Shown here piece after piece: positions 31,964-36,275 of a stretch of 64,000 nucleotides of DNA (the first letter of the stretch is position 1; every line of letters begins with the position of its first letter). Source of the stretch: Synechococcus sp. LA31 (GTDB taxonomy: Bacteria; Cyanobacteriota; Cyanobacteriia; PCC-6307; Cyanobiaceae); NCBI RefSeq assembly GCF_018502385.1, contig NZ_CP075523.1, positions 1,860,001 to 1,924,000 on the forward strand. The letters are read 5' to 3'. The position numbers were made by a program, and so were the translations under genes. The notes beneath the pieces are model-generated. The model searched no databases. It saw only the letters and a program-made list of their open reading frames with translations, and had not been told where the DNA came from.

Positions 31964-34900
31964 GTGTCCATCCCGCAACGCGTCCGCCGTCTGATTGCGG
32001 TGCTGGGATCGGCATCCGTGCTGGCGGCAGGTGGTGCTCGTGCCGCCGAACCCACCACTCAGCAACCCGAGAGCGCTCAGGCACAGGTTTCTGCTGCGGC
32101 TTCCCCCTCGCTGATCGAGGCCACCCCCAGCCAGAAGCCACCAATCGACATCGAGCTCACGGCTGATAGCCAGGGCTTCGATCTGTTGGCCAACCGCTTT
32201 GTGGCCGTTGGCAACGTGAAAGTGATCCTGGCAGGCGGACGCCTGCTGGCCGATCGCATCGAATACGAAAGCGCGACACGCACGATCTATGCGAGCGGAC
32301 GCATCCGCTTCCAGCGCGGCAACCAATATCTGCAGGCAAGCAAGCTTCGCTACAGCCTGATCGAGAACAGCGGTGAGATCGACGAGGTGTATGGCGTTCT
32401 CGACCTCGACAGCGCTGCCCTCGACCTCAACCCGAGTGAACCGCCCTCCGCAGCACTGCTGCCGCTGAGCTACTGGTCGTCGCCAGCTGCCCCGTTCAAC
32501 GCCAACATTTCCTTCACCGCTGAGGCACTTCCCGCGCCAGACAGCGCGGTGGCCGCGCAGCTGATCAGCAGGCCGCTGAGCGATGGCACCAGCGCCGCTG
32601 CCATTCCGCCAGGCTCACCGGAGCCCGTGCCGAACGACGACTGGCAGATGCCACCGGTGGCGCTCTCTCCGGCAGCGCAAACCATGGCTTGCCCGCCGGC
32701 GCTGCCCCCCGTTCCCAACTGGCGCCCCTATCCGTGGGCCGCCACCGTTTGGGGCGGGCAGATGATCGACGCCAACTTCGGCGACACTTTTCTCTTCAAC
32801 GGTGAACTGAGACCCGAATATCTTTGGGGCGTGGGGTTGAACAAACGCCTGCTGCGCGCCGGCCCACTAGCTCTGGAGTTCGACTCGAACGCCCTAATCC
32901 ACAGCGCTGCCGAGCAACCCGGTGGTGGCTTCAACCAAGACGTTCCCTTCGCCAACACGCCAGCTCAGACCTTCGGCGAATTCACCTGGAGCTTCGGTGT
33001 ACGCGCTTGGCTGCAGCCCTGGCTGAGCCTGGCCTTCTTTGAAGGGGTGAGCCTTAACACCAACGTCAGCAATTACGAGAAGACATTTCGCGAGGATTAC
33101 ACCACCTTCCTCAACTACCTCGGCTTCGAGGTGGAAGCACTGATCAAACCGGAATGGTCGATTGTGGGGCGGATCCACCACCGCTCCGGCGCCTACGGCA
33201 CCTACAGCGGCGTGAGTGAAGGCAGCAACGCCTACCTAGTGGGCATGCGCTATCGCTTCGGTAGCAGCCCACCTCCGCGGTTCAGCGTGGCGATGGACCC
33301 TCCTGATGGGTGCCCAGGAGGCGGTCAGCCCCAGCCCAAACCCCTGAGCGAACAGCTCAATCAGGTGGCACTGGGCTCAGCAGAGCAGGCCACAGGCACG
33401 CCCCCAGCCCCGGCTGGTGCCACTGCTGCCTCAAGCAACCTCAGCCCCGGGCAACAGGAAGCATTGCGGCGCGAAGCGATCGCGGCTGCGGTGGATCAAC
33501 GCGTGAGTGGCCTGCAGTTTCAGCAGAGCCTCAAGGTGCAACGGCAGGCCGGCGGCAACACAGACGATGTGACCATCACTGGCCGGCAGGTGACCTACGG
33601 CAACGTGCGGCCCTGGCAGCTGCAACCACTCACCAATAAGGAAAACCGCAAGTTTGTGAGCGGCATGATCAGCCGCTGGCGCATGCAGGCCAATCAGCTC
33701 AAGGTGACACCCAAGGGCTGGCAGGCCGATCGCGTTGCCTTCACCAACGACCCCTACACACCGGCGCAATCGTGGGTGGATGCCAGCGGTGTGGTGGCGT
33801 ATCAGGAGGCCAACGGCGACTTGGTGATTCAGGCCAAGAGCAACCAGCTGATCCTCGAAGACCGCCTGCCGATCCCTCTGCAGCGCAATCAACGCTTCGA
33901 GAAGGATCGCGAGGTGGAAAACCGCTGGGTGATGGCAGTGGACTCAGAAGACCGCGACGGCTTCTATCTCGGATACAACCTCAAGCCACTGGAGGTGGGC
34001 AAGCGGGGCACCCTCAACCTGCAACCCCAGTTCATGGTGCGGCGGGCCCTTGATGGCACCACCAGCAGCTATGTGCTGCCAGGTCAACCGATCGGCAGCT
34101 CGCCGAAGAGCCAGCCCACGCGCATTGGCGACTTGTTTGGCCTGCTGGCACGCTTCGACACCCGTGTGCTCGGCTTAAACGTGGATGTGGTGGGTGATTT
34201 CTCCACCTTTGATCCCAGCAACTTCGCCAATGGCACCCGTAGCTGGGCTGACATCAGCCGCTCCTTCAACCTGCCGGTGATCGGCAAAACCACCGCCCGC
34301 GGGTTTGCGGCCTATCGCTTCCGGGTGTGGAACGGCTCCCTCGGCGAGCAAGACGTGTATTCCGCTCTGGGCGTGTCGCTGGAGCAGGACGTCGCTCTAC
34401 CCAACCTGGGCAGCATCACCAACCGCATGTTCTGGCGTGCCGGTGTGGGCAACTTCCAGGGCACGCAATTCACCAGCGTGAATCTGGCCGATCTGTGGCG
34501 AGCCAGTGCGTATGGCTCGATCAACAGCCGTTTACAGCTCTGGACTGGCAAGCCGCTCAATCCAGGCACAGAACTGGCCACCCGATTCAGCCCCACTCCG
34601 GTGGTACCTGGCTTAGCACTCAACAGCAACCTCAACATGAACCTCGCCTATTACGGCGATGGCACCAACCAACAGGCCGTGAGCATCAGCGGTGGACCCA
34701 CGCTCACCCTGGGGCATTTGCAGAAGAACTTCTTCGATTACACCCAATTCACCATCGCCGGCGGCGGCACCTTGCGGCAGGGGGTCAGCCCCTTCAGCTT
34801 TGATCGCATCGTGGATCTGGGCACCCTGGGGGTGGGCCTCACCCAGCAGCTCGTTGGGCCGCTGATGATTAGCGGTGGCGTTGGATTCAACGTGGATCCC

Positions 34901-35119
34901 AACTCGGAATTTTTCGGCGATGTTTTGGATTCCTATGTGGAGCTGCGCTGGCAGCGGCGCGCCTATGAGCTGGCGATTTACTACAGCCCGTATCAAGGTA
35001 TCGGTGGTGTTCGCGTGAAGCTCAACGACTTCAACTTCCGTGGCACCGGCCTGCCCTTCGTGCCCTACACACCGCCGGGTCTGGCGGCCGACGCTGCCAT
35101 TCAGCGCCGCGGCTTCTGA
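31964..35119 (+). CDS. lptD: LptD-like outer-membrane protein (DUF3769) with inserted PagL-like barrel
   Basis: The protein has 1051 residues. Residues 1-28 are a signal peptide (IAVLGSASVLAAGGARA). Residues 60-150 form an OstA/LptA-like jellyroll (FVAVGNVKVILAGGRLLADR, IYASGRIRFQRGNQYL). Residues 250-433 look like a separate barrel: FPF-type strands, WSFGVRAWLQPWLSLAFFEG, then RIHHRSGAYG, SEGSNAYLVGMRYRF, resembling PagL/acyloxyacyl hydrolases. Residues 500-1051 are the DUF3769 domain ending in outer-membrane strands and an Arg-Gly-Phe terminus. It should insert lipopolysaccharide into the outer membrane. Start GTG. The inserted region is the unusual part. Confidence 0.8.
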   Translation: MSIPQRVRRLIAVLGSASVLAAGGARAAEPTTQQPESAQAQVSAAASPSLIEATPSQKPPIDIELTADSQGFDLLANRFVAVGNVKVILAGGRLLADRIEYESATRTIYASGRIRFQRGNQYLQASKLRYSLIENSGEIDEVYGVLDLDSAALDLNPSEPPSAALLPLSYWSSPAAPFNANISFTAEALPAPDSAVAAQLISRPLSDGTSAAAIPPGSPEPVPNDDWQMPPVALSPAAQTMACPPALPPVPNWRPYPWAATVWGGQMIDANFGDTFLFNGELRPEYLWGVGLNKRLLRAGPLALEFDSNALIHSAAEQPGGGFNQDVPFANTPAQTFGEFTWSFGVRAWLQPWLSLAFFEGVSLNTNVSNYEKTFREDYTTFLNYLGFEVEALIKPEWSIVGRIHHRSGAYGTYSGVSEGSNAYLVGMRYRFGSSPPPRFSVAMDPPDGCPGGGQPQPKPLSEQLNQVALGSAEQATGTPPAPAGATAASSNLSPGQQEALRREAIAAAVDQRVSGLQFQQSLKVQRQAGGNTDDVTITGRQVTYGNVRPWQLQPLTNKENRKFVSGMISRWRMQANQLKVTPKGWQADRVAFTNDPYTPAQSWVDASGVVAYQEANGDLVIQAKSNQLILEDRLPIPLQRNQRFEKDREVENRWVMAVDSEDRDGFYLGYNLKPLEVGKRGTLNLQPQFMVRRALDGTTSSYVLPGQPIGSSPKSQPTRIGDLFGLLARFDTRVLGLNVDVVGDFSTFDPSNFANGTRSWADISRSFNLPVIGKTTARGFAAYRFRVWNGSLGEQDVYSALGVSLEQDVALPNLGSITNRMFWRAGVGNFQGTQFTSVNLADLWRASAYGSINSRLQLWTGKPLNPGTELATRFSPTPVVPGLALNSNLNMNLAYYGDGTNQQAVSISGGPTLTLGHLQKNFFDYTQFTIAGGGTLRQGVSPFSFDRIVDLGTLGVGLTQQLVGPLMISGGVGFNVDPNSEFFGDVLDSYVELRWQRRAYELAIYYSPYQGIGGVRVKLNDFNFRGTGLPFVPYTPPGLAADAAIQRRGF

Positions 35120-35598
35120 GGCCCAACAGGGGGCAAGGGAGCCGGGCCAGGCTCCTCGCCGCCAATGAACAAATCGCTCCCGGTGAAATCGGCACCCACC
35201 AGCACGGCACCCTGAATCTGGGCACCTGGGGTGAGGGCTTGAATCAACACGGCTTCCTGCAGATTGGCCTGGCGTAGATCCGCATCACTGAGATCAGCAT
35301 TGGTGAGCCAGCTCTGCTGCAGGCGAGCACCACGCAGATCAGCACCGCTCAAATCAGCCCCCTCCAGATTGCTGCCCCGCAGATCGGCGCCCCGCAGATC
35401 GGCCTCACGCAGATCCATGCCGTTGAGCAGCAGGCCCTTCAGATCAGCGCCGCGCAGATCACAGCCTCGGCAATGCTGCCAAGGCGGCGCCGCCGGCGTA
35501 TAGGGCTCCACCGCGATGGGCTGAGCGGCTGCAGCTGCCAAAGGCAGGGCCAAAAGCCAACCCGCCAAGGCCGGCTGTGCATGAGAGAGGAAGCGCAT
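35101..35598 (-). CDS. Secreted pentapeptide-repeat protein
   Basis: The 165-residue protein starts MRFLSHAQPALAGWLLALPL with a signal peptide cleaved after AAAAA. About ten tandem A(D/N)LXX pentapeptides follow between residues 48 and 110 (CDLRGADLKGLLLNGMDL, READLRGADLRGSNLEGADL). They should fold into a right-handed quadrilateral beta-helix. The two cysteines just before the repeats (HCRGC) may form a disulphide. Such periplasmic/luminal proteins are common in cyanobacteria with unknown function. It is convergent with the LptD-like gene and overlaps it by 19 bases. Confidence 0.85.
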   Translation of the reverse strand: MRFLSHAQPALAGWLLALPLAAAAAQPIAVEPYTPAAPPWQHCRGCDLRGADLKGLLLNGMDLREADLRGADLRGSNLEGADLSGADLRGARLQQSWLTNADLSDADLRQANLQEAVLIQALTPGAQIQGAVLVGADFTGSDLFIGGEEPGPAPLPPVGPQKPRR

Positions 35599-35633
35599 CG
35601 GCCATGAACCGTCCTCTCTCCTTGATAGACAGT

Positions 35634-36275
35634 TCAGCGAGTGGCGGCCACGAAGCCGCTCAGATACGGCAAGCGCGCAGCGGCGGCCTCGAGAGCTTTG
35701 CCGTTGGCGAGCAGCTGCCCAGTGGCATCCCACTGGCCGGTGGACAGCATCTGGCGCGGACCCGCTGCCAAATCCAAGGCCCAGCTCTGCTCACCCAGGC
35801 TCAGGCAGGCATTCGCTACATCCACCTCAAACACCGCGGCTGGATCAGCTTGCGCTGCAGCCTGGATGGCCAGCATCGTGTCGTGTTCCGCCGCCAGGCA
35901 GGGGATCCCAAGGGCCAGGCAGTTGCCATAGAAAATCTCCGCGAAGCTCTCGCCCACCACAGCGCGGATGCCCCAGCGCATCAGCGCTTGAGGGGCGTGC
36001 TCCCGGCTGGAACCACAGCCGAAGTTGCGATTCACCAGCAGGATCGCGGCGCCCTGGTGCTCCGGGCGATCGAATGGGTGCGGGCCAACCGGGCTGGCGG
36101 TCAGCTCGGCGCGATCGTCGGCGAAGACGGCGGGGCCCAGGGCGTCAAAGGTGACGCACTTGAGGAAGCGAGCCGGAATGATCCGATCGGTGTCGATGTC
36201 ATCGCCACGCACCACCACGGTGGTGCCGCGGATGCTGCTGATCGGTCCGGTGGGGAAGGGGGTGGAGCTGGTCAT
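35634..36275 (-). CDS. leuD: 3-isopropylmalate dehydratase small subunit
   Basis: LeuD completes the isopropylmalate isomerase of leucine synthesis with LeuC. The 213-residue protein has VVRGDDIDTDRIIPARFLKC, the substrate-specificity segment LLVNRNFGCGSSREHAPQAL and AVVGESFAEIFYGNCLALG. Length and motifs are normal. Its ATG is 4 bases after the leuC stop, so both subunits come from one transcript. Confidence 0.95.
   Translation of the reverse strand: MTSSTPFPTGPISSIRGTTVVVRGDDIDTDRIIPARFLKCVTFDALGPAVFADDRAELTASPVGPHPFDRPEHQGAAILLVNRNFGCGSSREHAPQALMRWGIRAVVGESFAEIFYGNCLALGIPCLAAEHDTMLAIQAAAQADPAAVFEVDVANACLSLGEQSWALDLAAGPRQMLSTGQWDATGQLLANGKALEAAAARLPYLSGFVAATR

Follow-up and report, generated by a model that had tools for sequence, protein, structure and literature searches.

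What is a second, complete membrane barrel doing inside the protein that exports lipopolysaccharide in a picocyanobacterium, and could it act on the lipid that the exporter delivers? The question is raised by a locus of Synechococcus sp. LA31 (contig NZ_CP075523.1), which lies within a stretch of 64,000 nucleotides (positions 1,860,001 to 1,924,000 of the forward strand). This stretch is referred to below as the window, and its features are given in its own coordinates.

A second barrel in the linker of a cyanobacterial LptD

The open reading frame at 31964-35119 (plus strand, GTG start, 1051 residues) encodes a cyanobacterial LptD. In a profile search of the protein, PF12600 (DUF3769), a family that has been named LptD (PMC4365693), matches residues 567-1024 with an E value of 2.1e-124, and LptD structures make up the first ten Foldseek matches of the full-length model in the PDB (best E value 5e-11; mean pLDDT of the model 69). 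As in other LptD proteins, an OstA-like jellyroll is combined with a C-terminal barrel. Strands of the OstA/LptA-like jellyroll are modeled at residues 64-147 (32153-32404, plus strand), which OstA_2 and LptD_N profiles match weakly and under cut-off in searches of the whole protein. A second jellyroll or taco-like stretch of model strands occupies residues 571-640 (33674-33883, plus strand), and the LptD barrel itself, delimited by model strands and PF12600, spans residues 655-1026 (33926-35041, plus strand). A convergent pentapeptide-repeat reading frame on the minus strand (35101-35733) overlaps the final 19 bases of the LptD frame. The protein differs from other LptD proteins in having a second complete eight-stranded barrel in its linker, between a conserved pair of cysteines.

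This embedded barrel comprises residues 258-432 (32735-33259, plus strand). When modeled alone with AlphaFold2 (48 homologues), the domain reaches a pLDDT of 89.7 and a pTM of 0.84 and forms eight strands, at residues 258-269, 281-299, 302-315, 335-351, 354-365, 382-395, 398-408, and 421-432; the full-length model also shows it, as an island amid low-confidence linkers. A complete small barrel at about residues 250-433 had been proposed by an earlier, sequence-only reading of this DNA, whose coordinates correspond to residues 251-433, and the model bears that proposal out. The same reading had placed the barrel between the LptA-like jellyroll and the LptD barrel; it does follow the OstA-like strands, but it does not directly precede the LptD barrel, since the taco-like stretch intervenes. 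Because that stretch follows it, the embedded barrel interrupts the periplasmic part of LptD. The linker that separates it from the OstA-like strands is disordered in the full-length model, and the second linker (residues 434-570; 33263-33673, plus strand) has a pLDDT mostly below 60, with a median identity of 31% over residues 434-530. The barrel probably sits in the outer membrane, adjoining the LptD barrel.

Searches of Pfam, NCBIfam, PHROGs, and PDB sequences returned nothing above threshold for the embedded barrel. Its closest Foldseek matches are the eight-stranded barrels of OmpA, Ail, and OmpX, which share the fold but are without the His-x-Ser...Asn patch described below; PagL, the lipid A deacylase to which the sequence-only reading had likened the domain, is absent from the best 50 of 962 matches. 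These closest structural relatives are non-enzymatic, which favors the main rival to a catalytic role, namely that the domain is an accessory barrel that aids the folding, anchoring, or orientation of LptD or shapes the membrane at its lateral gate, for instance as a substitute for LptE. We regard this as a serious possibility, though one held at less than even confidence. The fold is also generic enough to suit an ordinary surface barrel, porin-like or serving as a phage receptor, that became part of LptD by accident and is now drifting. Conservation speaks against drift and makes this very improbable: the embedded barrel is the best conserved domain of the LptD protein (its median identity to the window is 58%, while the LptD barrel has 49% and the linkers have 21-31%), purifying selection on it is strong (dN/dS 0.05-0.08 in comparisons with five close relatives), its motif is invariant across two phyla, and no phage relative was found by sequence. 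A viral origin of the barrel was considered and rejected, its matches by fold being generic barrels only.

Occurrence, insertion point, and history of the insert

DUF3769 is present in all 95 near-complete Cyanobiaceae genomes, and the LptD-fused barrel in about 61 of them. The view that every DUF3769 protein normally contains the insert is thus rejected, the insert being missing from about one-third of these genomes; the family survey agrees in this with the earlier view of the domain as an insertion. The barrel domain as such was detected in 92 of 151 Cyanobiaceae genomes, 63 of the 95 near-complete ones included; the two non-fusions among those 63 are a free-standing copy in genome G030 and, in G149, a weak fragmentary hit (L050) about 54 residues long, with an E value of 0.002, that was taken as chance. 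Such breadth of occurrence, together with the conservation and purifying selection noted above, indicates that the barrel is not a chance feature. Open frames with the insert are mostly about 950-1230 residues long and those without it about 650-910. Beyond Cyanobiaceae, a survey of about 390 genomes of the class turned up no fused copy, and four of these genomes had free-standing copies of the barrel.

The insertion point is shown by insert-less orthologues (L102, L104, L106-L111). These have a proline-rich linker with an ACPP motif, followed about 30 residues later by GCPG, and the embedded barrel is inserted exactly between the cysteines of these two motifs, which in the window are Cys243 (32690-32692, plus strand) and Cys450 (33311-33313, plus strand). 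Both are invariant in 31 aligned fused proteins, and a disulfide between them, closing off the linker loop, is likely. In several Prochlorococcus-like orthologues the linker has been lost entirely, along with both cysteines.

A tree built from the LptD domain shows six changes of state for the insert, and insert-less sequences are nested among fused ones; in a tree built from the barrel, the fused copies come close to forming a single group, and the free-standing copies fall outside it or next to it, though several long branches make this tree indicative. Taken from the sequences, these patterns suggest that a free-standing eight-stranded barrel was captured, probably once, between the two linker cysteines in Cyanobiaceae and was lost several times later.

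Genome G030 encodes an insert-less LptD and, at another locus, an exported free-standing barrel that carries the HHRSG motif described below (L044 3634-4599 and L109; 44% identical), which means that barrel and LptD can function separately. In G108, a fused copy (L046) is accompanied by fragments, at two contig ends, of another barrel gene of the free-standing kind (L045 4704-5033 and L047 112-837). The patchy occurrence weighs against the accessory-barrel explanation: insert-less LptD works in close relatives, and the barrel is therefore not needed for LptD assembly in general.

The HHRSG residues and the comparison with PagL

Free-standing relatives of the embedded barrel are proteins of about 215-360 residues with signal-peptide-like starts. 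A few other cyanobacteria have them (L086-L088), as do Alphaproteobacterial plasmids of Agrobacterium, Chelativorans, and Aminobacter (L117 2001-2525; L118 2872-3522; L119 2863-3513; L132 463-1113), where they are called 'hypothetical protein' wherever annotated; none of those scanned exceeded a Pfam or NCBIfam cut-off. They differ from the embedded form in being single-domain exported proteins and agree with it in domain length and in the motif set G, S, E, HHRSG, N, G, and R. The assembly that holds a further copy (L089, 1501-2121) is cyanobacterial, with 5% contamination; this copy clusters with those from Alphaproteobacteria and probably lies on a foreign contig. By their shared motifs, the HHRSG barrels are an unannotated family common to cyanobacteria and Alphaproteobacteria, and retention of the motif by members that are not attached to LptD is a second point against a purely accessory role.

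The residues behind the name lie at positions 405-409 (33176-33190, plus strand). Among 88 distinct sequences, H405, R407, S408, and G409 are present in all and H406 in 87, and G361, S363, E389, HHRSG 405-409, N422, G427, and R429 are invariant in fused, cyanobacterial free-standing, and Alphaproteobacterial members alike. The sole fused member without H406 (L062, 3415-3993; H406Q) also has N422T but keeps H405, R407, and S408; it comes from a genome that is 62% complete. The sequence-only reading had seen in His406, Ser408, and Glu419 an echo of the PagL triad. Its His-Ser pair has proved well founded, as H406 (87 of 88) and S408 (no exceptions) occupy the same alignment column as the PagL His-x-Ser. 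Its third residue has not: Glu419 (33218-33220, plus strand) is a loop position right before strand 8, lies outside the PagL register, and is not conserved, being G, D, or A in 12 of the 88 sequences and a gap in one (several fused members and most of the free-standing ones have G or D there, and several marine lineages have Gly). The column of PagL Glu140 is instead held by Asn422 (33227-33229, plus strand), with a single exception among the 88.

Strand alternation puts H406, S408, and N422 on the same side as the hydrophobic, lipid-facing residues. The H406-x-S408 pair would accordingly face lipid at the extracellular end of strand 7, and the three residues would be grouped in space near the extracellular rim of the outer wall, where PagL has its His-Ser-Glu site. 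Much of the invariance is inward-facing, however (E389, H405, R407, R429, and, in the fused forms, R403). Catalysis leaves these residues unexplained, so there is room for the structural role that an accessory barrel implies, in which the HHRSG residues would belong to a charge network closing the barrel interior. Structural need alone, on the other hand, would not fix a histidine, a serine, and an asparagine on the lipid face.

PagL (PF09411, PDB 2erv) likewise has an eight-stranded barrel, a His-x-Ser where strand 7 reaches the extracellular side, and a G-x-[E/D/N] at the beginning of strand 8. The C-terminal pattern of PagL proteins is R-x-x-H-x-S-N/G-[AG]...P-N-x-G-x-[E/D/N]...F, or one closely similar, and the embedded barrel ends R-I-H-H-R-S-G-A...G-S-N...R-Y-R-F. 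N422 stands ten residues ahead of the final Phe, as does Glu140 in the 150-residue mature PagL (2erv). PagL differs in having a Glu as its third residue where the HHRSG barrels have Asn, although five of the PagL proteins collected have Asn in that column, and in its H-x-SNAG and PNPG (P-N-x-G) motifs, in place of which the insert has HHRSG (RSG[AVIG]) and no PN-x-G.

In profile comparisons with hhalign, the insert family aligned with 17 PagL proteins collinearly, over nearly the full length and in register (E 0.0007-0.01, probability 4-24%), compared with E values of 0.07-0.46, taken as no similarity, against an OMP_b-brl control of 18 other cyanobacterial barrels; PagL matched the same control at about 1e-6 to 6e-5. 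When columns were shuffled 200 times with strand alternation preserved, the global insert-PagL score of 20.3 exceeded every shuffle (maximum 16.8) and the local score of 22.3 was beaten by one. The Pfam cut-off for PagL (23 bits) was reached by no HHRSG member, and the insert of the window gave no match; the best score, 16.2 bits, belongs to a free-standing relative, and the best E value among such relatives is 0.012, their alignments being partly out of register. The 2erv sequence was recognized by true PagL proteins only. The PagL resemblance claimed for the domain thus stands in the barrel and in the His-x-Ser register and falls short of the Pfam threshold, with the profiles suggestive of kinship, so that the HHRSG barrel may be homologous to PagL. 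With no Pfam match above threshold, with PagL outside the 50 best Foldseek matches, and without the SNAG and PNPG motifs, it is not filed as a PagL member; it may nevertheless work like one.

True PagL homologues were found in five of 194 genomes of the class, all non-picocyanobacterial (L037-L041); they exceed the PF09411 cut-off and carry R-W-H/Y-HISNA...NPG-x-D. Two further matches of the PagL profile, L042 and L043, were OmpA-like false ones and were removed.

Lipid A and a putative editing role

The LA31 genome contains LpxC, and lipid A is thus made; no late acyltransferase (PF03279), separate PagL, or LptE (PF04390) was found in it. The lack of LptE is a point in favor of an accessory barrel that takes its place. 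LptE is, however, a partner of proteobacterial LptD and no feature of the DUF3769 family, and its absence from the genome puts it outside the cyanobacterial version of LptD, as far as detectable here.

The explanation we favor, while considering it about evenly balanced between right and wrong, is that the lipid-facing His-Ser-Asn site edits acyl chains beside the LptD gate. The putative activity would most likely resemble that of PagL, with an ester-linked acyl chain hydrolyzed from lipid A, or from some other lipid of the outer leaflet, while lipid passes out of the gate; PagL itself, by comparison, is a separate enzyme and not a barrel fused into LptD. As a third residue, Asn is weak compared with Glu or Asp, and this counts against PagL-like catalysis.

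Cyanobacteria are credited in the literature with lpxA, C, D, and B only (PMC3087551), and in a review table marine Synechococcus CC9311 and WH8102 have a lipid A with four acyl chains and no phosphate (PMC4113827). An LpxACDB product left unedited would be expected to have four chains, whereas a 3-O-deacylase at the LptD gate would take off one of the four. If those strains carry the fusion, their four chains argue against complete trimming in culture and add to the case for a non-catalytic accessory barrel. Salmonella PagL is latent in the membrane, and for this reason four-chain lipid A is not fatal to PagL-like editing. A lipid A that is already low-acylated, in a genome lacking PF03279, could point the same site at another substrate, as an esterase or acyltransferase of glycerolipids (phospholipid, sulfolipid, or galactolipid) that keeps leaflet asymmetry near the gate. 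This shares the site evidence of the PagL-like explanation, but nothing indicates a particular substrate and covalent fusion to the lipid A exporter favors lipid A; we judge it unlikely.

In its most specific form, editing at the gate would make most picocyanobacterial LptD proteins one-chain lipopolysaccharide exporter-editors, in which a His-Ser-Asn deacylase barrel trims lipid A at insertion. We advance this form tentatively, with somewhat less confidence than acyl-chain editing in general. Two separate membrane barrels within one chain are unusual in themselves, and the insert-less orthologues that occur naturally allow clean comparisons. An outer-membrane barrel family that had gone unannotated in cyanobacteria and Alphaproteobacteria gains a testable function, and, if the proposal is true, an enzyme-like barrel in an essential lipopolysaccharide exporter would link the export and the editing of lipid A in the most abundant phototrophs.
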